A stretch of 64,000 nt of DNA from an uncultured Alphaproteobacteria bacterium. GTDB lineage: Bacteria > Pseudomonadota > Alphaproteobacteria > Rhodobacterales > Rhodobacteraceae. Of the stretch, positions 5,661-43,714 are shown one piece after another; position 1 is the first letter of the stretch; every line of letters starts with the position of its first letter. A program made the translations under genes and the position numbers. Under the pieces are notes generated by a model. The model ran no database searches and was not told where the DNA came from. It saw nothing but the letters and a program-made list of their open reading frames with translations. The DNA lies in contig CACIJG010000007.1 in assembly GCA_902586885.1 (NCBI GenBank), positions 1-64,000 of the forward strand, written 5' to 3'.

Positions 5661-8993
<3,333 letters not shown>

Positions 8994-10885: not shown

Positions 10886-10901
10886 AAGTCACCTATAAAT
10901 T

Positions 10902-12194: not shown

Positions 12195-12206
12195 AACCAC
12201 ATATCA

Positions 12207-22469: not shown

Positions 22470-22491
22470 TCATTGCGTTATTTAATAAACT

Positions 22492-22525
22492 CCAGGCTCC
22501 TTAAAATGGGGCCTGGTTTCTTTTG
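22492..22525 (+). terminator. Attenuator-like hairpin between phnD and phnC
   Basis: A 9-bp stem (22492-22500 with 22508-22516, one G-U pair) with a TTAAAAT loop and a T-rich tail TTTCTTTTG. It looks like a leaky intrinsic terminator that would lower expression of phnC and the permeases relative to phnD. Confidence 0.75.
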
Positions 22526-22535
22526 TGAGTGTTGA

Positions 22536-23321: not shown

Positions 23322-23326
23322 TCAGA

Positions 23327-24142: not shown

Positions 24143-24954
24143 TGGCCGTAATCAAAACAAATAATGAGATTATCTGGAAAAGGAGAACTACAAAAAAACA
24201 ATTAGCTATTTGGCTAGCATGGTTAGTAGGTATTTCCATAGTGCTTTTTGCTTGGAGCATTATATCTGAAAGAACCGTGTGGTTTTTTGTCCAAGATGCA
24301 CCAAGACAGGCAGCCGATATTGGAGGAAGAATGGTGCCTCCAAAGTGGTCATACATCTCAAAGTTAATAACACCAGTATGGGATACAATAAATATAGCTA
24401 CCCTTGGAACTGTTATTGCAATGATCATTGCTGTTCCTGTAGCATTTTGCGCTGCCCGAAATACAACTCCACATAGCACTGTAAGAGTGGTTGCACTATT
24501 TATTATAGTTTCATCTCGATCAGTTAATTCTCTGATATGGGCATTAATGCTAGTGTTTATTCTTGGGCCAGGCGTATTAGCAGGAACGATAGCAATAGGT
24601 TTAAGATCTATAGGATTTTGTGCAAAACTAATTTACGAGTCCATTGAGGAGATTGATGAAAATCAAGTGGAAGCTATCAAAGCTACTGGAGCCAGTAATT
24701 TACAGAGAATGACCTATGGTATTTTGCCACAAGTGCTTCCAACTATTGCTGGAGTGGGTATTTACAGATGGGATATCAATATAAGGGAGTCTACAATATT
24801 AGGATTAGTTGGCGCAGGGGGAATAGGCCTTCAATTGAGTGCATCTATTAACACGCTTGCCTGGACTCAGGTTTCTACGATTTTATTAGTAATTCTTGTA
24901 ACGGTATTTATTTCCGAATGGGTCTCGGCTAAGGTTCGAGGGGCAATTATATAA
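24142..24954 (+). CDS. phnE: Phosphonate-type ABC transporter permease, second PhnE
   Basis: A 270-residue paralogue of the preceding gene. I choose ATG at 24142 because it forms a TAATG junction with the upstream stop and is preceded by GAGGAAG at 24124-24130; a GTG four codons upstream is the alternative. The EAA loop is VEAIKATGASNLQRMTYGIL and the end has GAGGIGLQLSASI. Two different PhnE chains probably form a heterodimeric channel. Confidence 0.92.
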   Translation: MAVIKTNNEIIWKRRTTKKQLAIWLAWLVGISIVLFAWSIISERTVWFFVQDAPRQAADIGGRMVPPKWSYISKLITPVWDTINIATLGTVIAMIIAVPVAFCAARNTTPHSTVRVVALFIIVSSRSVNSLIWALMLVFILGPGVLAGTIAIGLRSIGFCAKLIYESIEEIDENQVEAIKATGASNLQRMTYGILPQVLPTIAGVGIYRWDINIRESTILGLVGAGGIGLQLSASINTLAWTQVSTILLVILVTVFISEWVSAKVRGAII

Positions 24955-25824: not shown

Positions 25825-26661
25825 CTATAAAGTTCTTAAAACTATTATCCCTGAAACAGTTATTAATGTTCCCAATAGCTTAGCCGTTGTCAGCTTTTCC
25901 TTTAAAAAGATAATACCTATTATAAAAGCAAATATTATTGAAGTTTCTCTTATGGCCATAACAATAGCAATCGGCGCATTAAAAAAGGCCCACATAACCA
26001 GAGAGTACGCTAAAAAGGAGGCAAAACCGCCCCCTAAAAAAATCCACTTCGCGCTACCAATAATTTTTGATGCCGTGCCTGGTGAAACAAACCTGCAATA
26101 AATGATCATCCCTATCCCATTAATTATTGAAAGCCAGCAGTAATATGCTACAGGACTTTCACCGATACGACCTCCATAACCGTCTACAAGTGAATAAGAT
26201 GCTATAAAGCACCCCGTAATCAATGCGGAAATTGCAGCATTTTTTGGAACATGTTGGATTCGTACTCCAACAGTAGATAGAAGACCTGCAATTATTAAAA
26301 AAATTGCCAGCAATTCGGGCAATCCAAACTTCTCTCCTAGGAACAAAAATGTAATGATTGTCACCATTAAAGGGGCTGAAGCTCTGGCAATTGGGTATAC
26401 TTGTGATAGATCTCCCTTCTTATATGACTCAACAAGAAAAATTTGATAACCAAAATGGAAGATGCAACCTAATAAAAGGTTTGGCCAGCATGTAAAATTC
26501 AATGGCGGTACATAGTATAATGCCACTATGGCGAATGGTATGTGTCCAGCAGATACCGCTGCCATCTGTAGCAGCTTATCGCTTCCTCCCTTTACAAGAG
26601 CATTCCACACCGCATGCAAGATTGCTGCAAATAAAATTACAAGGAAAGTTGTTGTGGTCAT
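25825..26661 (-). CDS. EamA/DMT-family transporter
   Basis: A 278-residue protein with about ten helices in two EamA repeats. FAAILHAVWNALVKGGSDK opens the first, and ARASAPLMVTIITFLFLGEK carries the usual end of a repeat. The substrate is unknown. The gene converges with the phosphodiesterase gene, 12 bases apart. About 140 bases upstream of its start there is a minus-oriented array of three PhoB-like half-sites, so it may be phosphate-regulated. Confidence 0.85.
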   Translation of the reverse strand: MTTTTFLVILFAAILHAVWNALVKGGSDKLLQMAAVSAGHIPFAIVALYYVPPLNFTCWPNLLLGCIFHFGYQIFLVESYKKGDLSQVYPIARASAPLMVTIITFLFLGEKFGLPELLAIFLIIAGLLSTVGVRIQHVPKNAAISALITGCFIASYSLVDGYGGRIGESPVAYYCWLSIINGIGMIIYCRFVSPGTASKIIGSAKWIFLGGGFASFLAYSLVMWAFFNAPIAIVMAIRETSIIFAFIIGIIFLKEKLTTAKLLGTLITVSGIIVLRTL

Positions 26662-26799: not shown

Positions 26800-26828
26800 G
26801 CGACAAAAATGTGACAAAAACATGACAT
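26800..26828 (-). promoter_or_regulatory. Candidate Pho-box array (three half-sites)
   Basis: On the plus strand GCGACA (26800), GTGACA (26811) and ATGACAT (26822) repeat with an exact 11-base period. Read on the minus strand these are ATGTCAT, TTGTCAC and TTGTCGC, close to the PhoB half-site CTGTCAT/C. A TATTTAT sequence lies about 10 bases downstream on the minus strand, a fair -10 position. The orientation points to the EamA gene ending at 25825. Inferred from pattern only. Confidence 0.55.
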
Positions 26829-26910: not shown

Positions 26911-27072
26911 ATGCATACAGAACGACAAACAAGAAAAGAAAACTTTTTCAGAAAAAAACAAATAAAACTGTTAAAGGCCTACGCTAAGGGCAAATTGAAA
27001 AAAGCAGAGAAACTACGTTCGGGTCTGCTTGCTGCGAATACCCACTTTGTAAACAAATCAGGGTTCAAGTAG
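26911..27072 (+). CDS. Small basic hypothetical protein (53 aa)
   Basis: An ATG at 26911, preceded by AGGA at 26899-26902 with good spacing, opens 53 codons. The product is strongly basic (MHTERQTRKENFFRKKQIK at the start, later KLKKAEKLRSGLLAANTHF) and has no membrane segment, signal peptide or cysteine. A possible -35 TTTACA is at 26861-26866. I do not recognise a family. The basic helix-like composition would suit a nucleic-acid or ribosome-associated role, but that is speculation. It converges with the ChrA gene. Confidence 0.5.
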   Translation: MHTERQTRKENFFRKKQIKLLKAYAKGKLKKAEKLRSGLLAANTHFVNKSGFK

Positions 27073-27094: not shown

Positions 27095-28282
27095 TTAGAT
27101 TAACAAGAATTTATCTATTGAATAACCGATACATCCCATCAATAGCACTGTTATCCATATTGGAAACTTCAAAATCAATATAAAGATAAGAGTTAAAGTA
27201 GTAAAAGCTATTGCCCACTCATTGTTGACAATTGAGGGAATTACAAAAACTAAGTAACTTGAGAATAATATTGCTGAGACAGCTATGTTTACGCCTTTTA
27301 GCCCTTTTTTGAAAATCCTACTCTTACTCAACCTACTCCAAAAATAAAGAGCTATAGGAGTTAATACAAATGTAGACGAATATAAAAATATAAGAAAATA
27401 AAAACCATAAAGTAGTTTATTAAAAACGGTAGAGTCATATGTTAGAGATCCTAAGTAGGATGCAAATGAAAACAACGGCCCAGGTATTGCTTGAGCGATT
27501 CCATATCCGAGCAAAAACTCTTCTTTAGATACTAATCCGCTATTTATAAAAGGACCCTGCAACAGAGGTAGAACTACATGCCCCCCACCAAAGACCAAGA
27601 AACCTGTGTTAAATAATTGCCTAAATAGGTTATAGTCTGAGCCAACTGCAAAAAAATTAAGTGTTAAAAAAGCAATTATCCCTAATAGAATGACTGTATA
27701 TACATGATATTTATTTAAATTTGATACTGCAACTATCTCGCTGTCCTCTAACGGAACTTCCTTTAAAAATAATAATCCAACCAACCAACCCGTGATTAAT
27801 ATTATTAATGGGTATGCTATAAGATCGAAATAAATAGTGATTATAGAAATACACAGGAAAATAAGTTTTTCTAAATTATCAGTACAAAAAGTTTTGTACA
27901 TGGTGAAAACTGCTACACCCACGACTGGTATTGCCACGGAAGAAAGTCCAGAGATTGCAAGATAGCTAAGTGATAATATATCCAGAGAGTAACCTATACC
28001 CAAAAATGTCATCACCAAAATCGAGGGCAAGCTAAAAGAAAGTAATGCGGCATATGCCCCTATTGAACCACCTTGCCTCATACCGATAGCAAAAGCTAAT
28101 TGACTTGAAGTTGGTCCGGGTAGAAATTGACAAATTGCTAGAAGATATGAAAAGTCGGTTTCCCCAATCCATCTTTTTGCCTTAACAAACTCTTCTCTGA
28201 AAAAACCAATATGGGCTGTTGGCCCTCCAAAGGAAGATAAACCCAACTTTAAAAAAGCAGTGCAGATTGCTATCTGATTCAT
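27095..28282 (-). CDS. ChrA-family (CHR) transporter
   Basis: A 395-residue, two-domain CHR protein. Each half has the family start: FLKLGLSSFGGPTAHIGFFREEFV at the N-terminus, with LPGPTSSQLAFAIGMRQGG, and FNTGFLVFGGGHVVLPLLQ with AIAQAIPGPLFSFASYLG in the second half. The full-length type exports chromate in resistant strains, but many members lie outside chromate contexts. No other metal-resistance gene is adjacent, so the physiological anion is uncertain. Confidence 0.88.
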   Translation of the reverse strand: MNQIAICTAFLKLGLSSFGGPTAHIGFFREEFVKAKRWIGETDFSYLLAICQFLPGPTSSQLAFAIGMRQGGSIGAYAALLSFSLPSILVMTFLGIGYSLDILSLSYLAISGLSSVAIPVVGVAVFTMYKTFCTDNLEKLIFLCISIITIYFDLIAYPLIILITGWLVGLLFLKEVPLEDSEIVAVSNLNKYHVYTVILLGIIAFLTLNFFAVGSDYNLFRQLFNTGFLVFGGGHVVLPLLQGPFINSGLVSKEEFLLGYGIAQAIPGPLFSFASYLGSLTYDSTVFNKLLYGFYFLIFLYSSTFVLTPIALYFWSRLSKSRIFKKGLKGVNIAVSAILFSSYLVFVIPSIVNNEWAIAFTTLTLIFILILKFPIWITVLLMGCIGYSIDKFLLI

Positions 28283-30645: not shown

Positions 30646-32070
30646 TTAAAGACCATGTAGAGACTTTGTTTCAAGGTAATCTTCTAGGCCCATCTTGCCT
30701 CCCTCGCGTCCGTTACCTGATTGCTTGTATCCTCCAAAAGGCGTTCCGTAATTGAAACCACCTCCATTTATATGTATTGCACCAGCCCTTAAAAGAGCTG
30801 ATACTCTTTCAGCTTTTTCCTTGTCAGAAGTTTGCAAATATGCCGCTAAACCGTAAGGAGTATCATTTGCGATAGTTATCGCTTCTGCCTCATTCTCAAA
30901 AGGGATAATCACTAATACAGGTCCAAAAATCTCTTCCTGAGCAATTCGCATGTTATTTTTCACATCATGGAAGATTGTTGGTTTCACATACCACCCTTGC
31001 TCAAAGCCCTCTGGCTTTCCAAGACCTCCTGTAAGAACTGGAGCCCCTTCTTTAATTCCAACATCAATCATATTTTGAACGCGGTCGAATTGAATTTTAT
31101 CAAATAGAGGCCCCAAATGATCTCCTTCTTTCTTGGGGTCATCTACAGAAATAGCTTCTGCTGAGTCTTTCGCAATTTTTAAAACTTCCTCATAGCAAGA
31201 TCGCTCTACTAATAAGCGAGTAGGTGCATCACATGATTGGCCACTATTAAACATACATTCTTCTACAGAGGCTTTTACATCTTTCTCAAGATCACAATCT
31301 GCAAATATGAGGTTTGGTGATTTGCCTCCTAATTCAAGAGTCACTCTCTTGATTGTGTCAGCAGAGTCTTTAGTAACTAAAATTCCGGCTCTGGTAGAGC
31401 CAGTGAAAGACATCATTTGAATATCTTTATGTTTTGAAAGCGCTGTTCCCACAACATCCCCAACTCCATTAACAAGATTAAATACGCCTGAAGGGTATCC
31501 GGCCTCCTCTATCATTTCGGCATAAATCATTGCAGAAAGTGGTGTGTGCTCTGAAGGTTTTAAAACACATGTACAGCCAGTAGCCAGAGCTGGAATTACT
31601 TTTAAAGCTACCTGATTTATGGGCCAATTCCATGGCGTTATTAAGCCACAAACCCCTATTGGTTCTTTTATTAAGATATCTCCGTTCTCTAGCTTTTCTC
31701 TCTCTTCAAGCTTTTCAAGCGAGTCTATAAAACCATCAAGGTGCCCGATGGCAGAGTCTGCCTGAGCTGAACGAGCCATTGATATTGGAGCCCCCATTTC
31801 CTCTCTCATTGCTTGAGCGAGATCTTCAAAACGAGCTTCAGTGATGCTTTTCAACCGCCTTAGATATTCTAATCTTTCAGATTTTGATGTTTTAGAAAAA
31901 CTCTCGAATGCTTTTTTTGCAGCGTCAACTGCCCTATCAAGATCTTTTTTATTACCAAGTGATACCTGTCCAATTTCATTTTGATTTGCTGGGTTTAAAA
32001 CTGGCATTTTTTCTGTTGAAATAGGCTCAACCCATTGCCCATTTATAAAGAATTTCCCTAAATTTTCCAT
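30646..32070 (-). CDS. NAD(P)-dependent aldehyde dehydrogenase
   Basis: A 474-residue ALDH superfamily member with complete active site: E246 in LELGGKSPN and C280 in MFNSGQSCDAPTRL; the oxyanion Asn is in PWNWPIN. The end IHINGGGFNYGTPFGGYKQSGNGREGG is typical of the betaine-aldehyde/phenylacetaldehyde group. The substrate is not predictable. It is divergent from the ArsJ-type GAPDH gene and shares the 165-base intergenic space with the Pho box there. Confidence 0.9.
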   Translation of the reverse strand: MENLGKFFINGQWVEPISTEKMPVLNPANQNEIGQVSLGNKKDLDRAVDAAKKAFESFSKTSKSERLEYLRRLKSITEARFEDLAQAMREEMGAPISMARSAQADSAIGHLDGFIDSLEKLEEREKLENGDILIKEPIGVCGLITPWNWPINQVALKVIPALATGCTCVLKPSEHTPLSAMIYAEMIEEAGYPSGVFNLVNGVGDVVGTALSKHKDIQMMSFTGSTRAGILVTKDSADTIKRVTLELGGKSPNLIFADCDLEKDVKASVEECMFNSGQSCDAPTRLLVERSCYEEVLKIAKDSAEAISVDDPKKEGDHLGPLFDKIQFDRVQNMIDVGIKEGAPVLTGGLGKPEGFEQGWYVKPTIFHDVKNNMRIAQEEIFGPVLVIIPFENEAEAITIANDTPYGLAAYLQTSDKEKAERVSALLRAGAIHINGGGFNYGTPFGGYKQSGNGREGGKMGLEDYLETKSLHGL

Positions 32071-32183: not shown

Positions 32184-32201
32184 ATGACATAAATCTGTCA
32201 C
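32184..32201 (+). promoter_or_regulatory. Pho box upstream of gap-arsJ
   Basis: ATGACAT-AAAT-CTGTCAC matches the two-half-site Pho box (CTGTCAT-AAAT-CTGTCAC) at 16 of 18 bases. It lies 35 bases upstream of the GAPDH start, with a possible -10 TAGATA at 32209-32214. Control by PhoB, encoded 9 kb downstream, is the natural inference; no ArsR gene is seen. Confidence 0.78.
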
Positions 32202-32235
32202 AAATTTTAGATAACCAATTATTGGAGATTAAGGA

Positions 32236-33246
32236 ATGAATATTTTCATAAATGGCCTAGGAAGAATAGGAAAGCTTGTTTTTCGTCGTCTTTGCGATGA
32301 GGGTCTCTATAAAAAAATCCATTCTGTAAATGAAAAGGAAGGAATTCCCTCAGATCAGGAGTATTTTCTTAAATATGATAGTGTCCATGGTTCGTGGGGT
32401 GAAAAACTAAATTTTAAGAATAATAATCTTTTTTATAAAGAACATCCCATTCGGGTATCTAACTTCAATCACATTGAAGATCTTAGCTTCCCAGAAGCTA
32501 CGCCAAATATAGCGATAGACTGCACGGGAAAGTTTAAAGATGAAAAGTCGTTACAGGCTTATTTTGATAAAGGAATAGACTATGTATTGGTTTCGGCACC
32601 AATAGATTCTAAAAATGTCTTCAATATCGTTTATGGGATTAATCATAATGATGTCAATCTAGAAAAGTATAAGATACTTACTGCTGCTAGCTGTACAACA
32701 AATTGCCTGGCGCCGATTGTAAAAGTTTTGGAAACTAACATAGGTATAAGCCATGGCTCAATAACTACGATACACAACATCACAAATACCCAAACTATAG
32801 CTGACTCACCTAACAGCAACCTTAGGAGATCTAGATCAGGAATAAATTCTTTGATACCGACTACCACTGGATCTGCAAAGGCCATATCATTAATATATCC
32901 GGAACTTAAAGGTAGGCTAAATGGCCATGCCGTAAGAGTTCCTCTTCTTAACTCCTCTTTAACTGATTGTGTTTTTGAGATGAAGAAAAAAACAGATAAG
33001 GAGAATATAAATCAACTTTTTAGAGACGCCTCAAAAACCTATTTGAAAAACATTATTAGCTATGAGGATAAACCATTGGTATCTACGGATTATGTAAATA
33101 ATCCTAATTCATCCATAATCGATTGTCTCTCAACCATGGTAGTAAATGACACTCAGTTAAAGGTTTATGCATGGTATGATAATGAGTGGGGTTATGCCTG
33201 CAGAATGGTAGATATAGTATCTTTCCTTACAAACAAATTAGGCTGA
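32236..33246 (+). CDS. ArsJ-associated glyceraldehyde-3-phosphate dehydrogenase
   Basis: A 336-residue GAPDH. NAD-binding INGLGRIGKLVFR (5-17), catalytic C153 in AASCTTNCLAP and H180 in TTIH are present, with NDTQLKVYAWYDNEWGYACRMVD at the end. Features such as VNEKEG, KYDSVHGSWGEKLN and VRVPLLNSSLTDCVFEM match the GAPDH that partners ArsJ rather than the glycolytic enzyme. In that system it couples arsenate to glyceraldehyde-3-phosphate, giving 1-arseno-3-phosphoglycerate. GGAG at 32224-32227 is the ribosome binding site. arsJ follows by 3 bases. Confidence 0.9.
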   Translation: MNIFINGLGRIGKLVFRRLCDEGLYKKIHSVNEKEGIPSDQEYFLKYDSVHGSWGEKLNFKNNNLFYKEHPIRVSNFNHIEDLSFPEATPNIAIDCTGKFKDEKSLQAYFDKGIDYVLVSAPIDSKNVFNIVYGINHNDVNLEKYKILTAASCTTNCLAPIVKVLETNIGISHGSITTIHNITNTQTIADSPNSNLRRSRSGINSLIPTTTGSAKAISLIYPELKGRLNGHAVRVPLLNSSLTDCVFEMKKKTDKENINQLFRDASKTYLKNIISYEDKPLVSTDYVNNPNSSIIDCLSTMVVNDTQLKVYAWYDNEWGYACRMVDIVSFLTNKLG

Positions 33247-33249
33247 AAT

Positions 33250-34515
33250 TTGCTTATATTTAACCCATTTTTCTCCATTACACTTGTTTACTGGTCTCTA
33301 ATGCTGACGGATGGAGCAGTAAGAATGATTGTTCTTATGAACTTTCACGAAAAGGGATTTTCACCTTTTACCCTGGCATACATTTTTCTTTTGTACGAGT
33401 TTATGGGCATTTTAACCAATTTCTATGGTGGTTGGTATGGAAAGAAATTTGGCCTTAGCTTTATTTTAATTCTTGGCGCTTCTTTGCAAATATCATCTCT
33501 AGCAATCCTAAGTTTAATGCCTACCGGTTTTTCGGAATTTAGCACCATTATTTTTCTAATTTTTTTTCAAGGGCTTTGCGGTGTCGCTAAAGATTTGACG
33601 AAAGTAGCTAGCAAAACATCTATAAAGTTTTTGAGTGATGAAGATAAAAATGAGAGTTTATTTAAGAACATAACGTGGCTTACCGGTTCAAAAAATACTG
33701 TGAAAGGCTTAGGCTTTTTTGTTGGAGCTAGCCTTATTACATTTTTTAGTTTTTCAATCTCCTTATTTTCCTTGGCCTGCTTTTTAGCTTTTTTCTTTTT
33801 CTTGTCGATTTTATCTTTATTGCGATCTCCAATATTAGTTTCTAGAGACATCAATACAAAAATTGTTAGGGTTTCTTCCACAAGCAGGGAAATTAATATT
33901 TTGTCTTTAGCCAGAGTATTTCTTTTTGGAGCACGTGATATCTGGTTTGTTGTGGGTATACCTGTGTTTTTTATTCATTCTTTTACAGTAATTTTTTCAC
34001 TTCAGATGGATAAGACTTTAGCTTATCTGTCTGTTGGAGCCTTTATGGCTACTTGGGTTATTCTCTATGGAATAGTTCAAGCCAAAGTGCCTCAAATAAT
34101 TAAGAATTTATCTGCTGAATCAATTTTTAAAGCTGCTCGGGTATGGTCTCTGGTGTTAGTAATGCCAACTTTTATTTTAACGCTTACCATCCCAGTTTTT
34201 GAGAATGTCTCAGCAACATATTTCATTTTATTTGTCATAATGTTTCTTTTTATATTTGGGTTTTTCTTTGCAATAAACTCAAGCATTCATTCATATTTAA
34301 TTCTCGCTTTAACAAAAAATAATAATGCTTCTGTAGATGTAGGCTTTTATTATTCGGCAAATGCCTTGGGCAGGTTTATTGGCACTTTTCTATCCGGTTT
34401 GAGTTTTCAATTTGGGGGGTTATTTTTGTGTTTAGCAACGTCAACTATATTTCTTTTGTTTGCCTTTGTATTTACAAGTAAATTGAGAGCAACGTCCCTT
34501 AAATTGTCCATTTGA
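33250..34515 (+). CDS. arsJ: ArsJ organoarsenical efflux MFS permease
   Basis: A 421-residue 12-helix MFS protein. The opening ITLVYWSLMLTDGAVRMIVL and YIFLLYEFMGILTNFYGGW are hallmarks of ArsJ, with FQGLCGVAKDLTKVASK and WLTGSKNTVKGLGFF further on. ArsJ exports 1-arseno-3-phosphoglycerate, which then breaks down to arsenate outside. The TTG start is 3 bases after the GAPDH stop, so the two are coupled. The downstream neighbour is phoR, not arsR or arsC. Confident from motif and partner gene. Confidence 0.88.
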   Translation: MLIFNPFFSITLVYWSLMLTDGAVRMIVLMNFHEKGFSPFTLAYIFLLYEFMGILTNFYGGWYGKKFGLSFILILGASLQISSLAILSLMPTGFSEFSTIIFLIFFQGLCGVAKDLTKVASKTSIKFLSDEDKNESLFKNITWLTGSKNTVKGLGFFVGASLITFFSFSISLFSLACFLAFFFFLSILSLLRSPILVSRDINTKIVRVSSTSREINILSLARVFLFGARDIWFVVGIPVFFIHSFTVIFSLQMDKTLAYLSVGAFMATWVILYGIVQAKVPQIIKNLSAESIFKAARVWSLVLVMPTFILTLTIPVFENVSATYFILFVIMFLFIFGFFFAINSSIHSYLILALTKNNNASVDVGFYYSANALGRFIGTFLSGLSFQFGGLFLCLATSTIFLLFAFVFTSKLRATSLKLSI

Positions 34516-34572
34516 AAAAATTAATATAATAAAGGAAGAGATTATTTTTAGCATGAAGTGTGAACTAAAAAA

Positions 34573-35853
34573 ATGAGAGAGAATTCTAATCCTTTTTTGA
34601 TTTTTTCGGTAATAATAATCTCAGTATTTATTCTATTCACTATTCTTGATTACAATAAGTGGATTTTCCCACTCGGGCTTTTTTTTGGATGTCTTGTTTT
34701 TTATTCATTTCTTAGCTCTACCAAATTTTCAAATAGGAAATACACAAATGAAGTTTTGAGTCAGGAAATACAAAAGGAGATACAAGAAACATATGACACA
34801 AAATTCACCTACAGAGTTGTAAAAGGTCTATTAAACATTTTGCCGTCGGCATATCTAATGCTTGATAGGTCTGGAAGAATTACGTTTATCAATTCCGAAG
34901 CAATAAGTCTTATTCCTGACGCAAATCTTGGCGCACATATCTCAACTTTTTTCAGATCTCCCTCTTTTTTAGAAGCTATTGAAGATGCTATCAATAATGA
35001 CACTCGAAAAACGCTAAAATTTGAGGTTCAAAGCCCTCAATTTAGACAACTAGAAGCCAATATTTTTTTTATTTCTTCTAGCAAATTGTCAAATAACTTT
35101 AATGATATCTTTATTAAATTAAGTGATATGTCAGAAAATATAAGGGTTGAAAAAATGAGAACAGATTTTGTCGCTAATGCTAGCCACGAGTTAAGAACTC
35201 CTCTTTCATCTATCATAGGATATCTTGAGACCCTCAAAGGTAATGCAAAAAATGACGAGTCAGCTAAAGAGTTATTTATTGGCCTTATGAGTAAACAAGC
35301 AAAAAAAATGGATCGTCTTATAGAAGATCTTATGTCCCTATCAAGACTGGAAATTCAAGAAAACAATCCAATTACGGCTGACTGTTTATTACAAGATATA
35401 ATAGATGAGATAGTAAATAATTTGAAACCCTTTGCAAAAAAATACAACGTTTCAGTAAATAATAAAATTTCTAAAAATTTTAAGTCGGTTAAAGGTGATG
35501 AGGGTCAATTACGTCAGTTATATTCTAACCTTATTGAAAATGGCATAAAATATTCAGGTAAAGGTAGTAAAGTCACAATTTCAGAGACCCAGGAAAAGAT
35601 AAAAAATATGGTTGGTATAGAAGTTAAAGACGATGGTAAGGGTATCGCTCCTGAATACATAAATAGGCTCACAGAGCGCTTTTTCAGAGCTAATTCAAAT
35701 AAAGAATTAGAAAAAGAGGGTACTGGTTTAGGTTTATCAATAGTTAAGCATATACTAGTAAGGCATAATGGTCGCTTACAAATTGAGTCGTCCATTGGAA
35801 AAGGGAGCAGATTTATAACCTGGTTTCCTAAAAAAGTTAAAGGGAAAAAGTGA
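34573..35853 (+). CDS. phoR: Phosphate regulon sensor kinase
   Basis: A 426-residue membrane histidine kinase. Two N-terminal helices (about 8-25 and 31-48) form a hairpin with almost no periplasmic loop, as in PhoR. A PAS-like region (about 85-185) follows, then the H box VANASHELRTPLSSIIGYLET with H205, the N box QLYSNLIENGIKYS, the G1 box KDDGKGIAPEY and the G2 box GTGLGLSIVKHI. Its position upstream of pstSCAB-phoU-phoB supports PhoR. It lies 57 bases after arsJ and may be read from the same Pho box. Confidence 0.92.
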   Translation: MRENSNPFLIFSVIIISVFILFTILDYNKWIFPLGLFFGCLVFYSFLSSTKFSNRKYTNEVLSQEIQKEIQETYDTKFTYRVVKGLLNILPSAYLMLDRSGRITFINSEAISLIPDANLGAHISTFFRSPSFLEAIEDAINNDTRKTLKFEVQSPQFRQLEANIFFISSSKLSNNFNDIFIKLSDMSENIRVEKMRTDFVANASHELRTPLSSIIGYLETLKGNAKNDESAKELFIGLMSKQAKKMDRLIEDLMSLSRLEIQENNPITADCLLQDIIDEIVNNLKPFAKKYNVSVNNKISKNFKSVKGDEGQLRQLYSNLIENGIKYSGKGSKVTISETQEKIKNMVGIEVKDDGKGIAPEYINRLTERFFRANSNKELEKEGTGLGLSIVKHILVRHNGRLQIESSIGKGSRFITWFPKKVKGKK

Positions 35854-35919
35854 TCTAGAAATATCGTTAAATTTTAATATTTCAATGAGATGAAAATAGT
35901 TTAAATTCAACGTCGTATA

Positions 35920-35959
35920 CAGTCACAAATCTTTATTAATTCTGACACAGACTTGTCCA
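35920..35959 (+). promoter_or_regulatory. Candidate PhoB half-site array upstream of pstS
   Basis: CAGTCAC (35920), CTTTATT (35931), CTGACAC (35942) and TTGTCCA (35953) are spaced by 11 bases. The first and third match the PhoB half-site at 6 of 7 positions; the others are weak. A possible -10 is TATTGT at 35972-35977, with the pstS start at 36017. Confidence 0.5.
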
Positions 35960-36016
35960 AATCGAATGACATATTGTTCAGCATAAAACCTTAATTTTAT
36001 AATGGAGATATCAATT

Positions 36017-36982
36017 ATGAGTTCATTGTCTAAAACAATTTTAAGTATAATTTTACTTTATGTCACTGCAAACAGCTCGTTGCTTGCTAGAGAAGGTGAC
36101 CAAATTTCTATTGTTGGGTCCTCAACAGTATTTCCCTTTGCAACTATAGTTGCGGAAAGATTTGCAAAGAATACTGATTTTAAAGCTCCAGTTATTGAAT
36201 CTACCGGCTCTGGTGGCGGGCTTAAACTTTTCTGTGCAGGTATTGGTTTAGATTATCCAGATATTACTAACTCTAGCAGGGCAATAAAATCCAGCGAAAA
36301 AGAGAAGTGCACTGCCTCAGGAATAAACCCTGTGGAGTACTTGGTGGGCTATGACGGAATTACTTTTTCAAATAGTAAACAAGCTAAGAAATTCTCTTTG
36401 ACTAAGGAAGAAATATATAAGGCCGTTTCTGCTAAAGTAATGACCGAAGGTAAAATGATTAAAAATCCCTTTAAGCTCTGGAGTGATATCAACCCTGAAC
36501 TTCCAAAGGTTGAAATTGATGTTTTAGCTCCTCCTCCTTCCTCTGGAACTAGAGACGCATTTGTTGAGCTTGTAATGCATTCTACGTGCAAGAAGCTTTA
36601 CAAAATGCCAAAAAAGGGTGCTGATGGATATAAAGAAAATTGCTCTTCTTTGAGAGAAGACGGAGCGGTAACAGAGGCTGGAGAAAACGACAACTTGATA
36701 ATTGAAAAACTCGCTGCCAACAAAGACCGTTTTGGCATTTTTGGTTTTTCTTTTTTAGATCAAAATAATGACAAAGTTCAAGGCTCAATGGTGGATGGTG
36801 TCTCTCCTAATATGGATACTATTGCTGATGGATCATACGGGGTTAGTAGACCATTATTCTTTTATGTTAAAAAAGAGCATGTGGGTGTTGTACCAGGAAT
36901 CCAAGAATATGCAGACTATTTTATGGCATTGACGAAAAGTGGTGGCCCCTTAGAGGCGGCAGGACTTATTCCGGCACCCTAA
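36017..36982 (+). CDS. pstS: Phosphate ABC transporter substrate-binding protein
   Basis: A 321-residue periplasmic phosphate-binding protein. The start at 36017 is preferred to ATG 36002 because GGAG at 36004-36007 is well placed for it and it gives a normal signal peptide (to about residue 24, LLA/REG). Phosphate contacts are expected in GSSTVFPF, ESTGSGGG, TNSSRAIK and PPSSGTRDAFVELV. It has an insert with several cysteines (HSTCKKLYK, ENCSSL), frequent in the marine/alphaproteobacterial PstS subgroup. A hairpin follows the gene. Confidence 0.95.
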   Translation: MSSLSKTILSIILLYVTANSSLLAREGDQISIVGSSTVFPFATIVAERFAKNTDFKAPVIESTGSGGGLKLFCAGIGLDYPDITNSSRAIKSSEKEKCTASGINPVEYLVGYDGITFSNSKQAKKFSLTKEEIYKAVSAKVMTEGKMIKNPFKLWSDINPELPKVEIDVLAPPPSSGTRDAFVELVMHSTCKKLYKMPKKGADGYKENCSSLREDGAVTEAGENDNLIIEKLAANKDRFGIFGFSFLDQNNDKVQGSMVDGVSPNMDTIADGSYGVSRPLFFYVKKEHVGVVPGIQEYADYFMALTKSGGPLEAAGLIPAP

Positions 36983-37021
36983 CTAATTACGACCACTAAT
37001 TTATTAGATTTACAAATGCAA

Positions 37022-37049
37022 AAAGCCGTTCTACGTTAAGAGCGGCTTT
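37022..37049 (+). promoter_or_regulatory. Intercistronic hairpin between pstS and pstC
   Basis: An 11-bp stem (37022-37032 with 37039-37049, one G-U pair) with a six-base loop and no long T run. It sits 40 bases after the pstS stop and 30 before pstC. Likely a 3' stabiliser or partial attenuator that keeps pstS expression above pstCAB. Confidence 0.72.
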
Positions 37050-37078
37050 AGCTGTTTCAGTAAAAATACGAAAAAAGG

Positions 37079-38473
37079 ATGGTTTTATTGTTTTCTCTGC
37101 CTTTAAGCTTTGTCTTCATTATTTTGCTGTGTGTATCTTTATTTTTTTACTATTACTCAAAGCGAACAATAGTTGAGAAAGCTTCTTCCATTGGTAAAAA
37201 AGCAAAAACACTCCCTGTCTATTATGGTCAGAACGCTTTTCTTTGGTCTTTTTTTCCAGCGTGTATATTTCTTATTTTTTTAACAGTCTCCGGTCCAAAT
37301 TACATAGATCAAATATTCTTTTCAAAAATCCAGGACCTTAATCCCAAATTTAATAGTTCTTTTATAGACCTTATCCTTTCCAAGGTTATAAATGTGGCAA
37401 ATGGAAAAATAGAAACTGATGATCAAAAAATAATTGTATTAGCAAACGATTACCTTTCAGCTTTTGAGAAATTTTATTTTTACAGGGGTTTAGGAGCAGT
37501 TTTGTGTTGCGCTCTTTTAGGTTTAATTGTCACCGCACGTCAAAAACCTTCTGTAAACGCAAGAGACCAGGTTCAGTTTTTCATGGTTTCAATTTTTTTT
37601 ATATCCGCTTTAATTGCGATACTTACTACTGCGGCAATAATATTTAGTTTGTTTTTTGAGTCTCTGAGATTTTTTAATCTTTACAATGTTTTCGACTTTA
37701 TTTTCGGTCTACATTGGTCTCCTAATGTAGCTATACGTACCGACCAGGTTGCTTCAGAAGGATCTTTTGGAATGATACCTGTTCTGCTAGGTACACTTCT
37801 GATATCTTTTATCGCAATGTGTGTAGCAATTCCTATTGGCTTATATTCGGCAATTTATCTAGCGGAATTCGCTCCCTCCAAAGTAAGGGATTATATTAAG
37901 CCAACTTTAGAAATTTTGGCAGGTATTCCAACTGTAGTTTACGGTTATTTCGCTGCTCTTACAGCCGCACCTTTTCTTCGTGACATCGGAGCCTTTGTTG
38001 GCTTAGATGTTTCATCTGAGTCTGCGCTGGCAGCAGGGTTAGTTATGGGAATCATGATCATTCCTTTCATATCGTCTTTATCTGATGATGTAATTCGAGC
38101 CGTTCCCCAAAGCCTTAGAGACGGTTCAATGGGGCTTGGAGCTACTAAGGCGGAAACAGTTTATAGAGTCATAATTCCAGCAGCTTTTCCGGGCTTAGTG
38201 GGTTCGATACTATTAGCTGTCAGCAGGGCAATTGGAGAAACGATGATTGTTGTTATGGCCGCAGGCTTGAGCGCAAAACTCACCGTGAATCCCCTTGAGT
38301 CTGTTACTACAGTAACAGTACAGATTGTGTCCTTGCTAACTGGTGACACAGAGTTTGATAATATAAAGACATTATCCGCTTTTGGGTTGGGTATATCTTT
38401 GTTTTTCTTTACCTTAATTTTAAATATTATAGCCCTGACTGTCTCCAGGCGCTTAGCTGAAAATTACGACTAG
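37079..38473 (+). CDS. pstC: Phosphate ABC transporter permease PstC
   Basis: A 464-residue permease, longer than enteric PstC (about 320) because of extra N-terminal helices and a soluble segment before the core, an architecture known from other Alphaproteobacteria. Core motifs: FGMIPVLLGTLLISFIAM, LAEFAPSKVRDYIKPTLE, AGIPTVVYGYFA and the EAA loop RDGSMGLGATKAETVYRVIIPAAFPG. It pairs with PstA to form the phosphate channel. No good ribosome binding site precedes the ATG at 37079. Confidence 0.93.
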   Translation: MVLLFSLPLSFVFIILLCVSLFFYYYSKRTIVEKASSIGKKAKTLPVYYGQNAFLWSFFPACIFLIFLTVSGPNYIDQIFFSKIQDLNPKFNSSFIDLILSKVINVANGKIETDDQKIIVLANDYLSAFEKFYFYRGLGAVLCCALLGLIVTARQKPSVNARDQVQFFMVSIFFISALIAILTTAAIIFSLFFESLRFFNLYNVFDFIFGLHWSPNVAIRTDQVASEGSFGMIPVLLGTLLISFIAMCVAIPIGLYSAIYLAEFAPSKVRDYIKPTLEILAGIPTVVYGYFAALTAAPFLRDIGAFVGLDVSSESALAAGLVMGIMIIPFISSLSDDVIRAVPQSLRDGSMGLGATKAETVYRVIIPAAFPGLVGSILLAVSRAIGETMIVVMAAGLSAKLTVNPLESVTTVTVQIVSLLTGDTEFDNIKTLSAFGLGISLFFFTLILNIIALTVSRRLAENYD

Positions 38474-38481
38474 GTAGTGTT

Positions 38482-39741
38482 ATGTCAAATTTGAAAAAAA
38501 GAAAAAGAGTGGAGGCAAGGCTGAAAATTTATGGTGTGGCATCAATAACTGTCGCTCTTTTAATGCTGGCCACTTTATTAATATCAATCAGCTTGAATGG
38601 TTACAGTGCGTTTAGGCAGGCTTATTTCAAAATTTCAATACCGGTTGATATGTCTCAATTTGCTACAGAAAATGGGTCCTTATCGTCAAAAAAATTGAAC
38701 CTCTATGATTGGGATGGTCTGGTTAATCAGTCTTTCAACAGTATTTTCCCTGATATCACAAAAAGGAATGATAAGAGAAAGCTCTTTCAAATAATCTCCT
38801 CTAACTCTGGGTATGATCTAAAACAGATTGTAAAAAATAGTGAATATTCCATAGGACAAAAAAATATGGTTGTTTGGTTGCCTTTATCAGATGATGCTGA
38901 CCAGTATTTAAAGGGAAGGTTCAACATTAAAGTTCCGGAGGAAGACAGACGTTTAAATGACAAACAAATTATATGGATTGACACACTGGTTGCAAAAGAT
39001 ATAGCGAAGCTAAAATTTAATAAAACTTTCTTTACAGCTGCAGACTCCAGAGAACCTGAGAGCGCAGGAATTCTTGGTGCAGTAGTTGGATCATCCTTAA
39101 CTTTATTTGTTACTATTCTTTTTGCCTTGCCCTTAGCAGTAATGGCTTCAATATATTTAGAATATTTTGCCAGGCCAGGCAGAATAACTGATTTTATTGA
39201 AGTAAATATAAATAATCTTGCAGCGGTTCCATCAATAGTTTTTGGCCTGCTAGGTCTTTCTGTATTCCTATCTACATTTGGCCTGCCAAGATCAGCGCCT
39301 TTAGTAGGGGGTCTTGTTTTAGGGTTAATGACGCTTCCAACGATAATTATTGCCTCAAGAACATCCATTCGTTCTATTCCTCCCTCTATACGAGAAGCTG
39401 CTTTGGGGTTAGGAGCATCGCAACTGCAGACAGCCCTTCACCATGTTCTTCCTCTCGCAACGCCAGGGATATTAACTGGAACAATTATTGGGATGGCGCG
39501 AGCCCTTGGCGAAACTGCACCTCTTTTAATGATTGGTATGGTTGCTTTTATTATGGAAGTGCCCAATAGCTTCACATCAGCATCTACTGTAATGCCAGTG
39601 CAAATATTTATGTGGTCCGATAGTGCAGAAAGAGCCTTTTACGAACGGAGTTCTTTAGCTATTCTATTCCTAGTTGGCTTTTTAATTTTTATGAATTTAA
39701 TTGCCGTTATTTTGAGAAAGAAATTCGAGAAGAAATGGTAA
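38482..39741 (+). CDS. pstA: Phosphate ABC transporter permease PstA
   Basis: A 419-residue permease. Residues 1-190 hold one helix and a large soluble segment (the DUF3333-like N-terminal region common to alphaproteobacterial PstA). The core has [38 protein letters not shown] and the EAA loop [21 protein letters not shown]. It starts 8 bases after pstC and ends 4 bases before pstB. Confidence 0.93.
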
Positions 39742-39745
39742 TTAT

Positions 39746-40504
39746 ATGTCAATAAAGTTTAAAGCAGAAAAAGTTGATGTTTTTTACAATGAAAAACAGG
39801 CGATAAATAATATCAGTCTTAATATTGAAAAAAATATGATTACTGCTCTAATTGGTCCCTCTGGGTGCGGAAAGTCTACTTTTTTAAGGTGCTTAAACAG
39901 AATGAATGACGTAATAGACTCATGTAAAATTACAGGAAATATTTTACTAGATAATGAAGATATTTATGGGCCTAATATTGACCCTGTAGATTTACGCGCC
40001 AGAGTAGGAATGGTGTTTCAAAAACCTAACCCCTTTCCAAAAACAATTTTTGAAAATATAGCTTATGGGCCAAGAATTCACGGCTTAGCTAGCAATAATA
40101 AAGAGCTCAGAGAGATCGTTTTTAATAGTCTTGAAAAAGCAGGTTTAATCGATGAGGTTAAAGATAGGCTCGATGACCAAGCAACGGGTTTATCAGGTGG
40201 TCAACAGCAGAGAGTTTGTATTGCCAGAGCAATAGCAGTAAGCCCAGAAGTTATTTTGATGGACGAACCCTGCTCAGCCCTAGACCCAATTGCTACTGCA
40301 AAAATAGAGGAATTGATGAATGAAATTTCCCAGAGTTACACTATTGTTATTGTAACGCATTCAATGCAGCAAGCAGCTCGGGTTTCTAAGAAAACAGCCT
40401 TCTTTCATTTAGGCGAATTAATTGAATACGGTGATACGGATAAAATATTTACTAAACCAAAAAACCAAAAAACTCTAGATTATATAACCGGCAGATTTGG
40501 ATAG
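39746..40504 (+). CDS. pstB: Phosphate ABC transporter ATPase
   Basis: A 252-residue ATPase. Walker A is GPSGCGKST (37-45), the Q loop is [18 protein letters not shown] (a PstB hallmark), the signature is [16 protein letters not shown], Walker B is [13 protein letters not shown] and the switch His is in VTHSMQQA. The FGPRIHG-type segment YGPRIHG and the end LDYITGRFG are also PstB-specific. It drives high-affinity phosphate uptake. Confidence 0.97.
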
Positions 40505-40517
40505 ATAAGGAGAAAAT

Positions 40518-41225
40518 ATGTCTTTACATATTTCATCAGCTTTTAACGAAGACTTGACCCACATAAACGCAAAAGTAAATGAGATGGGAGGTCTTTGCGA
40601 AAGAATGCTTGAAGCGTCAATAAAGGCAATAAAAAAAAGTGACGTTAAAATAGCTGATCAGATAATTATTCTAGATGAGAAAATAAACACCTTAGAAATA
40701 GAGGTTAATGAGGCAGTAATTAAAGCTATTGCGTTGAGACAACCTGTTGCTGACGACTTAAGAGTTTTAATCTCAGCAATAAAAATATCTGGGGCATTTG
40801 AGAGAATAGGTGACTTGTGCAAAAACATCGCCAAAAGAACACGGCTAGTTCTAGATGATTTTCCCAAAAAGACTAGAGATAAAATTGCTAACCTGGGAGA
40901 AAAGGTATTAGAGCAATTAACCAAGTCTATAAATTCCTACACGAAACAAGATTTGCAACTAGCAAAAATAGTTTGGGAAAAAGATTATGAAATAGACGAA
41001 ATGTACACGGAACTGTTTGACGTTTTATTAAAATATTTAAAGAAGAAAAAACGAATCGCGGCTGGATCTCACCTAGTAATAATTGCAAAAAATTTTGAAA
41101 GAATCGGGGATCATACAACCCATGTAAGTCGAATGATTCATTTTGCCATCACTGGTGAATCTTTGAATTTAGAGAGACCAAAATTTAATCTTCCCAGTTC
41201 TCTTGGAGAAAACAATGAAACCTAA
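40518..41225 (+). CDS. phoU: Phosphate-signalling protein PhoU
   Basis: A 235-residue protein with two PhoU three-helix units. Metal/contact motifs ERIGDLCKNIAKR and ERIGDHTTHVSRMI occupy equivalent places in the repeats. PhoU links the PstB/PhoR complex so that PhoR is kept off when phosphate is plentiful. AAGGAG at 40507-40512 is its ribosome binding site. Its 3' end overlaps phoB by 11 bases. Confidence 0.96.
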   Translation: MSLHISSAFNEDLTHINAKVNEMGGLCERMLEASIKAIKKSDVKIADQIIILDEKINTLEIEVNEAVIKAIALRQPVADDLRVLISAIKISGAFERIGDLCKNIAKRTRLVLDDFPKKTRDKIANLGEKVLEQLTKSINSYTKQDLQLAKIVWEKDYEIDEMYTELFDVLLKYLKKKKRIAAGSHLVIIAKNFERIGDHTTHVSRMIHFAITGESLNLERPKFNLPSSLGENNET

Positions 41226-41910
41226 AGTGTTGCTTGTAGAAGACGACAAAGATCTGCAAGGAATAATTTCCTATAACTTCTCTAAAGAGGGTTTTGAAAT
41301 AGGTACTTGTTCCGATGGAGAGCTTGCAATGGAAACAGTTATAAATGAGAATCCAGACTTAATTATTCTTGATTGGATGCTACCAAATATTTCAGGAGTT
41401 GAAATTTTACGACAGATTCGCACCAATAAAAAATGTAAAACTACCCCTGTGATTATGCTTACAGCAAAATCAGAAGAGTTTGACAGATTAAAGGCTTTCG
41501 ATGGTGGTGCTGATGATTATATAACAAAACCATTTTCAAATGCTGAATTGATTGCACGCTCAAAGGCGATACTCAGGAGAGCAAAATCTGAAACTATTTC
41601 TAATTCTCTTCAATTTCATGATATTGAATTAAATAGAGACACAAAAAGAGTATTTCGAGGCAAGAAAGAGATAAAGCTTGGCCCAGTGGAATTCAAACTC
41701 TTAGAGGTTTTCTTAATGCGGCCAGGTCAGGTGTTTAGCAGAGAACAGCTACTTGATAAAATATGGGGAAATGAGATCTATGTTGAAGACCGTACAGTTG
41801 ATGTTCATGTTGGTCGTTTGAGAAGAGCTCTAAATCGGGGGAAGGCAAAAAAAGACCCTATAAGAACTGTTAGAAGTTCGGGCTACTCTTTAAATGAAAA
41901 GTATAGCTAG
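41215..41910 (+). CDS. phoB: Phosphate regulon response regulator
   Basis: A 231-residue OmpR/PhoB-type regulator. The receiver has the acidic pocket VEDDKD (9-13), phospho-acceptor D53 in LIILDWMLPNISG and the switch Lys in MLTAKSEE. The C-terminal winged helix has SREQLLDKIWG and VEDRTVDVHVGRLRRALNR with GYSLNE at the end. ATG 41215 is chosen because GGAGAA at 41205-41210 serves it; an in-frame TTG at 41203 is possible. It is cotranscribed with phoU through an overlap. Confidence 0.96.
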   Translation: MKPKVLLVEDDKDLQGIISYNFSKEGFEIGTCSDGELAMETVINENPDLIILDWMLPNISGVEILRQIRTNKKCKTTPVIMLTAKSEEFDRLKAFDGGADDYITKPFSNAELIARSKAILRRAKSETISNSLQFHDIELNRDTKRVFRGKKEIKLGPVEFKLLEVFLMRPGQVFSREQLLDKIWGNEIYVEDRTVDVHVGRLRRALNRGKAKKDPIRTVRSSGYSLNEKYS

Positions 41911-41918
41911 TATCAAGG

Positions 41919-42914
41919 TTAATTTATCTCTAAATAACTCACGAAATTCTTCGTAGCCTTTTCCCAGGAAAACTTTTTAGCATGTTTAACAGCATCTTCG
42001 GCTTTTAATTTTGTTACTCTTTTACACGCTTCAAGCAGATCGTCATGAAGAACGCCGCCTTTAGAATTACCAATGACATCTGAAGGTCCGGATACATCAT
42101 AAGCAGCTACAGGAAGACCGCATGCCATTGCCTCTAATAATACTAAACCAAAGGTGTCTGTTTTTGATGGAAAGACAAAATAGTCGCATTCCTTATAGAT
42201 TTCAGAGATTTCGTGATGAGTTTTATTTCCAAAGAATTTTACATCAGGGTATTTTTTTTTCAAATTAATGGCATCTGGCCCATCACCTATCATCCATTTC
42301 TCCCCATCAACTTTAAGACCTAGAAAATCACCTAAATTCTTTTCAACAGCCAACCTACTTGTACAGACGTAAACTTTGGTTTTTCTTTTCTTTGAAGGAC
42401 TCTTTTGATATTTAAAAGTTTCAATATCAACTCCTAAAGACCAAATCTCTGGGTTACCAATTTTCCACTCCATTAGATCATCTTGTACTGTCTTTGATGG
42501 AACGAGTACCCTTTCTGAGTTTTTGTGGAACCACCTAAGATAGGCATAAGTCCACGATAAGGGCATTCCTGTTCTAGCTTTTATGTATTCGGGAAACCTA
42601 GTTTGAAATGCAGTGGTGTAATTAAGTTCATTTTTCGCAGCATAGGAGCGTGCCGCCAAGCCCAGAGGGCCTTCAGTATTTATATGCAAAACATCTGGCT
42701 CTAGATTATCCAATAGTCTAAATATTCTCTTTTTTGCAAATAGCGCTAATCTAATTTCAGGGTAAGTTGGGCACGGAATATTTCTAAATCTATCCGGGCC
42801 TATTACAAAGACATCGTGACCAGACTTTCTTAAAAACTTAACGGTTTGCTGGATGCAAACAACTACGCCATTTACTTGAGGCAACCAAGCGTCTGTTACA
42901 ATAACGATTTTCAT
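41919..42914 (-). CDS. Agt-like lipid glycosyltransferase (GT4 family)
   Basis: A 331-residue GT-B glycosyltransferase. The N-terminus IVTDAWLPQVNGVVVCIQQT is characteristic of GT4 diacylglycerol glycosyltransferases, and FPSKTDTFGLVLLEAMACG holds the conserved Glu pair that contacts the sugar nucleotide. It is 11 bases downstream of plcP. In marine Alphaproteobacteria this partner (Agt) adds glucose or glucuronate to diacylglycerol released by PlcP. The sugar cannot be read from sequence. Assignment rests on both motif and context. Confidence 0.87.
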   Translation of the reverse strand: MKIVIVTDAWLPQVNGVVVCIQQTVKFLRKSGHDVFVIGPDRFRNIPCPTYPEIRLALFAKKRIFRLLDNLEPDVLHINTEGPLGLAARSYAAKNELNYTTAFQTRFPEYIKARTGMPLSWTYAYLRWFHKNSERVLVPSKTVQDDLMEWKIGNPEIWSLGVDIETFKYQKSPSKKRKTKVYVCTSRLAVEKNLGDFLGLKVDGEKWMIGDGPDAINLKKKYPDVKFFGNKTHHEISEIYKECDYFVFPSKTDTFGLVLLEAMACGLPVAAYDVSGPSDVIGNSKGGVLHDDLLEACKRVTKLKAEDAVKHAKKFSWEKATKNFVSYLEIN

Positions 42915-42925
42915 AGGGGCTCTCC

Positions 42926-43714
42926 CTACTCCAAATACTCAAAATTGGCTATTCGTCTTTTGGTTTTTGACCACTCCACAATTTCAAGCTTTCCATCAAA
43001 GTGCTCAACGAGTGCTGTCATTGATTCTACCCAATCACCATCATTGGCATATAATATTCCCTCTATTTCTCTAATTTCTGCTTTATGTATATGACCACAG
43101 ATAACACCATCACAACCCCTTCTCCTAGTCTCGGTTACCATTGATTTTTCAAAAGCAGATATAAAAGATACAGCCATCTTAACCTTAGATTTTAAGTATT
43201 GAGAAAGAGACCAATAAGGAAATTTAAAAAATATTCTTATGGAGTTAAATAGGGCATTAATTTTCAGTAGAAAAACATAAGCCCAATCGCCGATATAAGC
43301 AAGCCAACGCGCATGCTGAATAACATTATCAAACAAGTCTCCATGGACAACCCAGTATTTCTTACCATTAGGAGATTCGTGAACATCGTCGTCCTTTACT
43401 TTAATCCCTCCTAAAGTGAGACCTACAAACTCTCTTGCGGCTTCATCATGATTTCCAGGAATGAAAACAATTTCCGTTCCGTTTTTCGCTTTCTCTAGAA
43501 TTTTCTGTACTACATCGTTATGAGCTTGAGGCCAATGCCATCTTTTTGATAGTTGCCAGCCATCCACTATATCCCCAACTAGATAAATTTTCTCTGCATC
43601 CGTATATCTCAAAAAACTCAATAGTTCCTTAGCCTGGGAGCCTTTAGTTCCCAGATGAAAATCTGATACCCAGACTGTTCTAAATACTTTGGATGGATTG
43701 CTAAGATCTTGCAT
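42926..43714 (-). CDS. plcP: PlcP-type phospholipase C (calcineurin-like, COG2908)
   Basis: A 262-residue metallophosphoesterase. Metal motifs: WVSDFHLGTKG (D18, H20), IYLVGDIVDGW, FIPGNHDE, YWVVHGDLFD and ICGHIHKAEI. The sequence RWHWPQAHNDVVQKIL is typical of the PlcP branch rather than LpxH. PlcP removes phospho-headgroups from membrane phospholipids in phosphate starvation, leaving diacylglycerol. The adjacent glycosyltransferase and phoB support this. I could not find a good Pho box in front of it. Confidence 0.88.
   Translation of the reverse strand: MQDLSNPSKVFRTVWVSDFHLGTKGSQAKELLSFLRYTDAEKIYLVGDIVDGWQLSKRWHWPQAHNDVVQKILEKAKNGTEIVFIPGNHDEAAREFVGLTLGGIKVKDDDVHESPNGKKYWVVHGDLFDNVIQHARWLAYIGDWAYVFLLKINALFNSIRIFFKFPYWSLSQYLKSKVKMAVSFISAFEKSMVTETRRRGCDGVICGHIHKAEIREIEGILYANDGDWVESMTALVEHFDGKLEIVEWSKTKRRIANFEYLE

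Follow-up and report, generated by a model that had tools for sequence, protein, structure and literature searches.

The 64,000-nucleotide window analysed here, the whole stretch at positions 1 to 64,000 of contig CACIJG010000007.1 and part of a 1.84-Mb assembly (76% complete) from a marine alphaproteobacterium, carries a gap-arsJ gene pair that probably forms a module for arsenate disposal controlled directly by PhoB, a reading to which we give a probability of about 0.77. An earlier account made from the letters alone (the sequence-only reading) had described the gene order gap-arsJ-phoR-pstS-pstC-pstA-pstB-phoU-phoB on the plus strand, met by convergent minus-strand genes for a GT4 glycosyltransferase and a calcineurin-like phosphoesterase, and open reading frames together with family scans show this order to be exact. 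It had also placed gap-arsJ in the Pho regulon; this proposal is strengthened by a candidate Pho box of the pair's own, absent in two congeners without the pair, and is well supported by sequence while unproven by experiment. Genes were identified from the list of open reading frames and from family scans against NCBI curated cut-offs (TIGR and NF models) and Pfam. Both Gap and ArsJ exceed the cut-offs of arsenic-specific models, their genes are separated by 3 bp, and arsJ was found once in the genome. The features at the head of the locus are as follows.

30646 to 32070, minus strand: aldehyde dehydrogenase gene (aldh), left border, divergent from gap
32184 to 32201, plus strand: candidate Pho box ATGACATAAATCTGTCAC, matching the consensus CTGTCATAWAWCTGTCAY at 16 of 18 letters and ending 34 bp before the gap ATG (window scan)
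32195 to 32212, plus strand: second, overlapping Pho-box-like register, 13/18, 11 bp downstream (window scan)
32236 to 33246, plus strand: gap, ArsJ-associated glyceraldehyde-3-phosphate dehydrogenase (GAPDH), NF033735 at 478.8 bits, above the cut-off of 450
33250 to 34515, plus strand: arsJ, exporter of the major facilitator superfamily (MFS), TTG start 3 bp after gap, NF033734 at 422.4 bits, above the cut-off of 400

Both strands of the window were scanned against an assumed 18-letter Pho-box consensus, CTGTCATAWAWCTGTCAY; the CTGTCAT core and the two 11-nt repeats of the Pho box are supported by PMC4415409 (papers are cited here by PMC number, each for the part of its text that was available). 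The box at 32184 is the top-scoring match of the whole window on either strand. Among eight simulated windows of the same dinucleotide make-up, none reached 16 and one reached 15, and genome-wide (1.84 Mb) the box is the sole match with no more than two mismatches. TAGATA, a possible -10 element, lies at 32208-32213. Five window sites score at least 14/18 (simulated mean 2.75), three of which precede phosphorus (P)-related genes: the gap box, a set of repeats at 26800-26828 and a 14/18 site beginning 89 bp upstream of phnD. The other two, at 35086 inside phoR and at 2020, do not precede such genes.

The arrangement is not confined to the window genome. In the genus, arsJ was found in 15 of 22 genomes, some copies being fragments, and phoR lies clearly downstream of it in 13 of these 15; in the remaining two, G020 has a phoR-like fragment at a contig end and the contig of G016 ends inside arsJ. 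In G017 (locus L051) and G018 (L052) arsJ is in pieces, as is gap in G018, through decay or assembly error. Block proteins of congeners with the same order are 51-83% identical to those of the window (matches above 100 bits, with the close relative G021 left out), so the order is more than chance. A Pho box of 14-16/18 starts 50-52 bp before gap in every one of the 13 genus loci, counting the window, whose upstream DNA could be used, although these 13 boxes comprise only three different site sequences; in a five-locus alignment the box is retained while its flanks diverge. Seven genus genomes are without arsJ. Five of these gave no phoR match at E<=1e-40, and the site cannot be judged there. 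In the two informative ones, G014 and G015, gap-arsJ is absent, phoR is the gene next to aldh, and the 75-bp spacer contains no Pho box (best 10/18 on either strand). In the judgeable cases the box travels with gap-arsJ, not with aldh or phoR.

Wider searches of sampled genomes found arsJ in 50 of 385 from the class and 189 of 295 from the family (both at E<=1e-40), and in 118 of 398 from the phylum (E<=1e-60). From outside the genus, 89 loci (L033-L041 and L077-L156; stretches of 7.1-19.0 kb) were taken, which is not a random sample: family loci came mostly from few-contig assemblies and from among the matches listed in order of score, and the last 20 (L137-L156), among them 12 family members with low scores and a number of small genomes, were chosen deliberately. 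Four (L037, L146, L147, L148) had no usable DNA upstream of gap, leaving 85. An ArsR-family gene lies near gap in 64 of the 85, and the other 21 gave no match to an ArsR profile anywhere in the fetched stretch, although that profile was built from matches in the same loci and a dissimilar ArsR could escape it. Three of the 64 (L125, L126, L141) had no same-strand upstream ArsR gene in reach, and 61 were scored.

In these loci the operon promoter was scored, meaning the DNA upstream of gap in ArsR-less operons and upstream of the ArsR gene otherwise, with other promoters of the same stretches as controls. Among ArsR-less operons, 16 of 21 have a match of at least 13/18, compared with 11 of 120 controls (Fisher 3.5e-10); for ArsR-led operons the figures are 21 of 61 and 13 of 376 (Fisher 9e-12), and the controls pooled give 24/496. 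At 14/18 or better the corresponding counts are 12/21 against 1/120 and 12/61 against 4/376. Permuting the consensus gave z 13.8 in the ArsR-less set, with 0 of 1000 permutations equalling the sum (minus strand, z 2.5), and z 5.9 for the ArsR-led promoters, where 1 of 500 reached the observed sum. The ArsR-less loci at 13/18 or above were nine of nine in the first 69 fetched and seven of twelve in the deliberately chosen last 20. From a second sample of 60 small loci six were dropped, and among the 54 that could be used, 6 of 11 ArsR-less loci reached this threshold; three loci (L185, L195, L216) had been relabelled ArsR-bearing on larger stretches, loci with a cut gap were excluded, and ArsR-led promoters fell outside the visible stretch. 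A phylum sample (L217-L246) stands outside the counts, its flanks being too short to show the operon start. Given this enrichment of boxes before arsJ operons relative to the controls, regulation of arsenate disposal by PhoB looks recurrent among Alphaproteobacteria, and ArsR would be an optional second input. Traced on an ArsJ tree built from 44 selected rows, the ArsR label switches 12 times, and supported branches force at least eight of the switches, so presence or absence of ArsR recurs in separate lineages; a quick tree of 100 rows was also built, the bootstrap was unsettled, and the window clade sits on a long branch with unsure neighbours.

An either/or reading, Pho box or ArsR, was considered and dropped. 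It drew on the 250 bp upstream of gap, which gave 16/21 ArsR-less against 3/64 ArsR-led loci at 13 or more, but in most ArsR-led loci that stretch codes for ArsR, which confounds the comparison, and of the operon promoters there 21/61 have a box too. The tree pairing test mentioned below and the ArsR-led half of the second sample use the same confounded upstream-of-gap scores.

Several points weigh against PhoB control of gap-arsJ. The consensus was an assumed one and the score threshold was not set in advance. With up to three mismatches allowed, the genome holds nine matches against eight for a reversed control pattern, so on its own the motif lacks specificity and predicts little. Promoters of other genes in the block match modestly in the genus, at 12-14/18 for pstS (seven loci scored) and 11/18 for plcP (five scored). 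In five of the 21 ArsR-less loci no box scores as high as 13; one of the five is L152, where gap-arsJ stands behind a pst operon. The loci sample is non-random, and the Fisher P values treat related loci as independent, ignoring kinship; a tree pairing test gave a median p of 0.03 at threshold 13 and 0.125 at threshold 14, on confounded scores. In Nodularia the ArsJ-associated gap was modestly induced on P limitation, while most genes related to arsenate were reported to show no marked response to P (PMC9846622).

The best surviving alternative is that an unlinked ArsR-type repressor controls gap-arsJ and that the position beside pst is an inherited layout with no regulatory meaning. ArsR control of arsJ is established for the V. 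cholerae var operon (PMC9601151), and the 64 loci of 85 outside the genus with an ArsR-family gene near gap point the same way. Eight genus genomes (58-91% complete) were searched: none yielded ACR3, and an ArsR-ArsC query found nothing at E<=1e-5 in six and weak partial matches in G005 and G008 (about 1e-5, in the phosphatase half), a short stand-alone ArsR of another type not being sought genome-wide. In the window and 12 other genus loci the ArsR profile matched nothing up to 1.5 kb from gap, and for L042 and L052 it matched nothing across the entire stretch. These searches agree with the sequence-only reading, which had the module working with no arsenic-sensing ArsR, and we consider control by an unlinked repressor unlikely. 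It is also quite improbable that the pair serves a metabolic role in phosphate shortage, such as triose phosphate rerouting or export of phosphorylated three-carbon acids, with arsenate not the main substrate. Its partnership with ppk-ppx in one lineage and with pst in the window would suit such a role, as would the failure of both searches, for ACR3 and for ArsR-ArsC, to turn up a further arsenic gene in the eight genus genomes, but Gap and ArsJ pass the arsenic-specific models, and ArsJ with GAPDH gives arsenate resistance where tested, the Halomonas GFAJ-1 pair having been assayed in E. coli (PMC5930303). That the box acts on the divergent aldh or is a phoR element, with gap-arsJ merely in between, is suggested by the 165-bp intergenic region common to aldh and gap and by phoR downstream, but is very improbable given that G014 and G015 keep both genes without the box and that boxes of the wider ArsR-less sample lie on the gap strand.

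Under direct PhoB control, low phosphate would lead PhoR to phosphorylate PhoB, and phosphorylated PhoB would occupy the box at 32184, replacing a -35 element. The gap-arsJ transcript would start there and probably continue into phoR, since no terminator-like site was listed between arsJ and phoR (34516-34572). Gap and ArsJ would then be made together with Pst, which also admits arsenate, as a feed-forward protection for which an arsenic sensor would not be needed. Arsenate entering via Pst would be joined to glyceraldehyde-3-phosphate by Gap, or would meet ArsJ directly, and then exit. The export product is disputed: an organic compound, 1-arseno-3-phosphoglycerate, was proposed for Pseudomonas, whereas the ArsJ of V. 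cholerae appears to export free arsenate (PMC9601151). Elsewhere in Alphaproteobacteria the same logic appears to recur: a Pho box frequently precedes arsJ operons, and ArsR is either missing, as it is in the window, or would serve as a second input.

The remainder of the block, and a P-related stretch that extends to the left of it at 21.5-26.7 kb, from phnDCEE to a TIGR03340-like transporter gene, comprise the following features.

21501 to 24954, plus strand: phnD-phnC-phnE-phnE, phosphonate/phosphite/phosphate ATP-binding cassette transporter, TIGR01098, TIGR02315 and TIGR01097 above cut-off
25825 to 26661, minus strand: TIGR03340-like "phosphonate utilization associated" membrane protein or transporter, 130 bits, below the cut-off of 288
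26800 to 26828, minus strand: three TGTCA/TGTCG repeats at 11-bp spacing, Pho-box-like with scores of 14/18 and 13/18, upstream of the TIGR03340-like gene (window scan)
34573 to 35853, plus strand: phoR, sensor histidine kinase, best match TIGR02966 at 287 bits, below the cut-off of 334
35931 to 35948, plus strand: weak Pho-box-like site before pstS, 13/18 (window scan)
36002 to 36982, plus strand: pstS, TIGR02136 at 153 bits, below the cut-off of 206.6; Pfam PBP_like_2
37079 to 38473, plus strand: pstC, TIGR02138 at 275.8 bits, above cut-off
38482 to 39741, plus strand: pstA, TIGR00974 at 209.8 bits, above cut-off
39746 to 40504, plus strand: pstB, TIGR00972 at 405.4 bits, above cut-off
40518 to 41225, plus strand: phoU, TIGR02135 at 197.5 bits, above cut-off
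41203 to 41910, plus strand: phoB, TIGR02154 at 299.8 bits, above the cut-off of 296.2
41919 to 42914, minus strand: GT4 glycosyltransferase, "agt" by position, Pfam Glyco_transf_4 and Glycos_transf_1
42926 to 43714, minus strand: calcineurin-like phosphoesterase, "plcP" by position, Pfam Metallophos, with an LpxH-like model far below cut-off

The lipid-remodelling role that the sequence-only reading gave to agt-plcP is putative. Pfam does place a GT4 glycosyltransferase beside a calcineurin-like phosphoesterase, but no agt or plcP subfamily model reached its cut-off, so that the names follow from Pfam domain and adjacency, and the plcP promoter has no recognisable Pho box (best 11/18). The left stretch also holds a cyclic-nucleotide phosphodiesterase-like gene. 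Beside the triple repeat, and pointing away from the TIGR03340-like gene, is a 53-codon open reading frame (26911-27072, plus strand). A chrA-like chromate transporter gene lies near the island at 27095-28282, and in G014, G015 and G018 it adjoins the same fead-eamA-aldh genes. Close relative G021 (L054) is 54-83% identical to the window from the end of arsJ to mid-phoB (window 34379-41628), while its flanks are 93-100% identical in all 250-bp bins except one (89%). The pst/pho block between the gap-arsJ and agt-plcP flanks thus looks to have been exchanged by homologous recombination.

Linkage of arsJ to pst is rare outside the genus, where it is clear in one of 89 loci, L152, with the order pstCAB-phoB-gap-arsJ. 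In L143 a PstB-like ATPase (48% identity) follows arsJ without other pst matches, and L127 has only weak PstS-like (23%) and PhoB-like (38%) neighbours. At an alphaproteobacterial locus (L284 of G302, 7313-12462), gap-arsJ is immediately preceded by a pstS-like gene (50% identity); ArsR-ArsC-like genes and ACR3 are also present, and the layout resembles cyanobacterial operons. The usual neighbour is instead a protein of about 280 amino acids encoded directly upstream of gap. The one example that was domain-scanned, in L074 (6134-6979), has an ArsR-like helix-turn-helix (HTH) fused to a low-molecular-weight phosphatase domain (LMWPc, ArsC-like), and 58 relatives of this fusion made up the ArsR profile; the fusion is possibly a sensor plus enzyme in a single chain. 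In small-genome alphaproteobacteria (1.4 Mb), locus L134 (6002-12519) has the order gap-arsJ-ppk-ppx with a 15/18 Pho box before gap. A phoR-like fragment lies about 7 kb upstream in L134; its relative L149 (5369-12532) has open reading frames of matching size, by listing alone, and a 15/18 box before gap, and both stretches contain more strong Pho-box-like sites. Two genomes with an ArsR-less, Pho-boxed gap-arsJ (G075 and G552) have ArsR/ArsC-like genes beside ACR3 elsewhere in the genome, the fusion gene of G552 having an internal stop, and may divide the task into arsenic-sensed and phosphate-sensed routes. In G903 (L237/L291), of the same phylum and outside the class, gap-arsJ comes with a Pho-box-like site scoring 15/18 at -70, and the fetched 17 kb gave no ArsR match, so the ArsR-less arrangement may extend beyond Alphaproteobacteria. 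A phage relative of ArsJ was seen as one partial match.

The sequence-only reading had presented the coupling as unusual against ars operons, and here precedents in Prochlorococcus, other cyanobacteria and Halomonas temper it. The Prochlorococcus P-acquisition cluster (phoBR, pst, gap1, mfs, chrA, arsR) likewise has a GAPDH and an MFS gene among P genes, and the window too has a chrA-like gene nearby; unlike the window, it belongs to another phylum, has an annotated arsR, and its mfs is not identified as ArsJ in the available part of that paper (PMC10504305). In Halomonas sp. GFAJ-1, arsJ and gapdh share an island with pst (arsH1-acr3-2-arsH2, pstBACS, mfs1-mfs2(ArsJ)-gapdh) and resistance was shown experimentally, but this is an arsenic island with acr3 and arsH, and the text available does not mention a Pho box (PMC5930303). 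Cyanobacterial (arsR)-pstS-gap3-MFS-acr3 operons place PstS beside gap-arsJ, as does Leptolyngbya L076, whereas some of these operons are ArsR-led and the authors suggest arsenic co-regulation (PMC4284471). PhoB governs another arsenic function through aioBA/aioXSR in Halomonas and Agrobacterium, and in Halomonas HAL1 PhoB binds a Pho box ahead of aioBA; that case, unlike the window's, is arsenite oxidation and not arsenate export, with ArsR and AioSR also involved in Agrobacterium (PMC7533571). The flexible phosphate islands of HIMB59, with pst/phoBR in streamlined marine alphaproteobacteria and suggested exchange by homologous recombination, are similar in setting, but a term search of the main text found no word beginning with "arsen" (PMC10734472). 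No Pho box before arsJ was met in the available parts of the openly licensed literature searched. The coupling of gap-arsJ with pst/pho was thus known in outline, and the apparently new elements are the promoter evidence, the joint absence of box and module, and the recurrence across Alphaproteobacteria.

Taken together, we lean slightly towards a broader reading in which PhoB control is common, and perhaps ancestral, for alphaproteobacterial arsenate disposal: phosphate scarcity would act as the arsenate alarm, an ArsR gate would have been gained or lost many times, streamlined ocean lineages would keep the phosphate switch alone, and gap-arsJ would be a cassette that comes and goes within phosphate islands open to exchange. 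The usual description of arsenic resistance has arsenic itself sensed via ArsR. If phosphate starvation alone induces arsenate disposal, the cell's signal would be the cause of exposure itself, high-affinity uptake at low phosphate. Such control would also suggest why the phosphate island of Prochlorococcus MED4 has a GAPDH gene, a gene that PMC10734472, in the part available, groups with organic phosphorus degradation, and it gives a prediction that may be checked in any Pho-box-class strain in culture.

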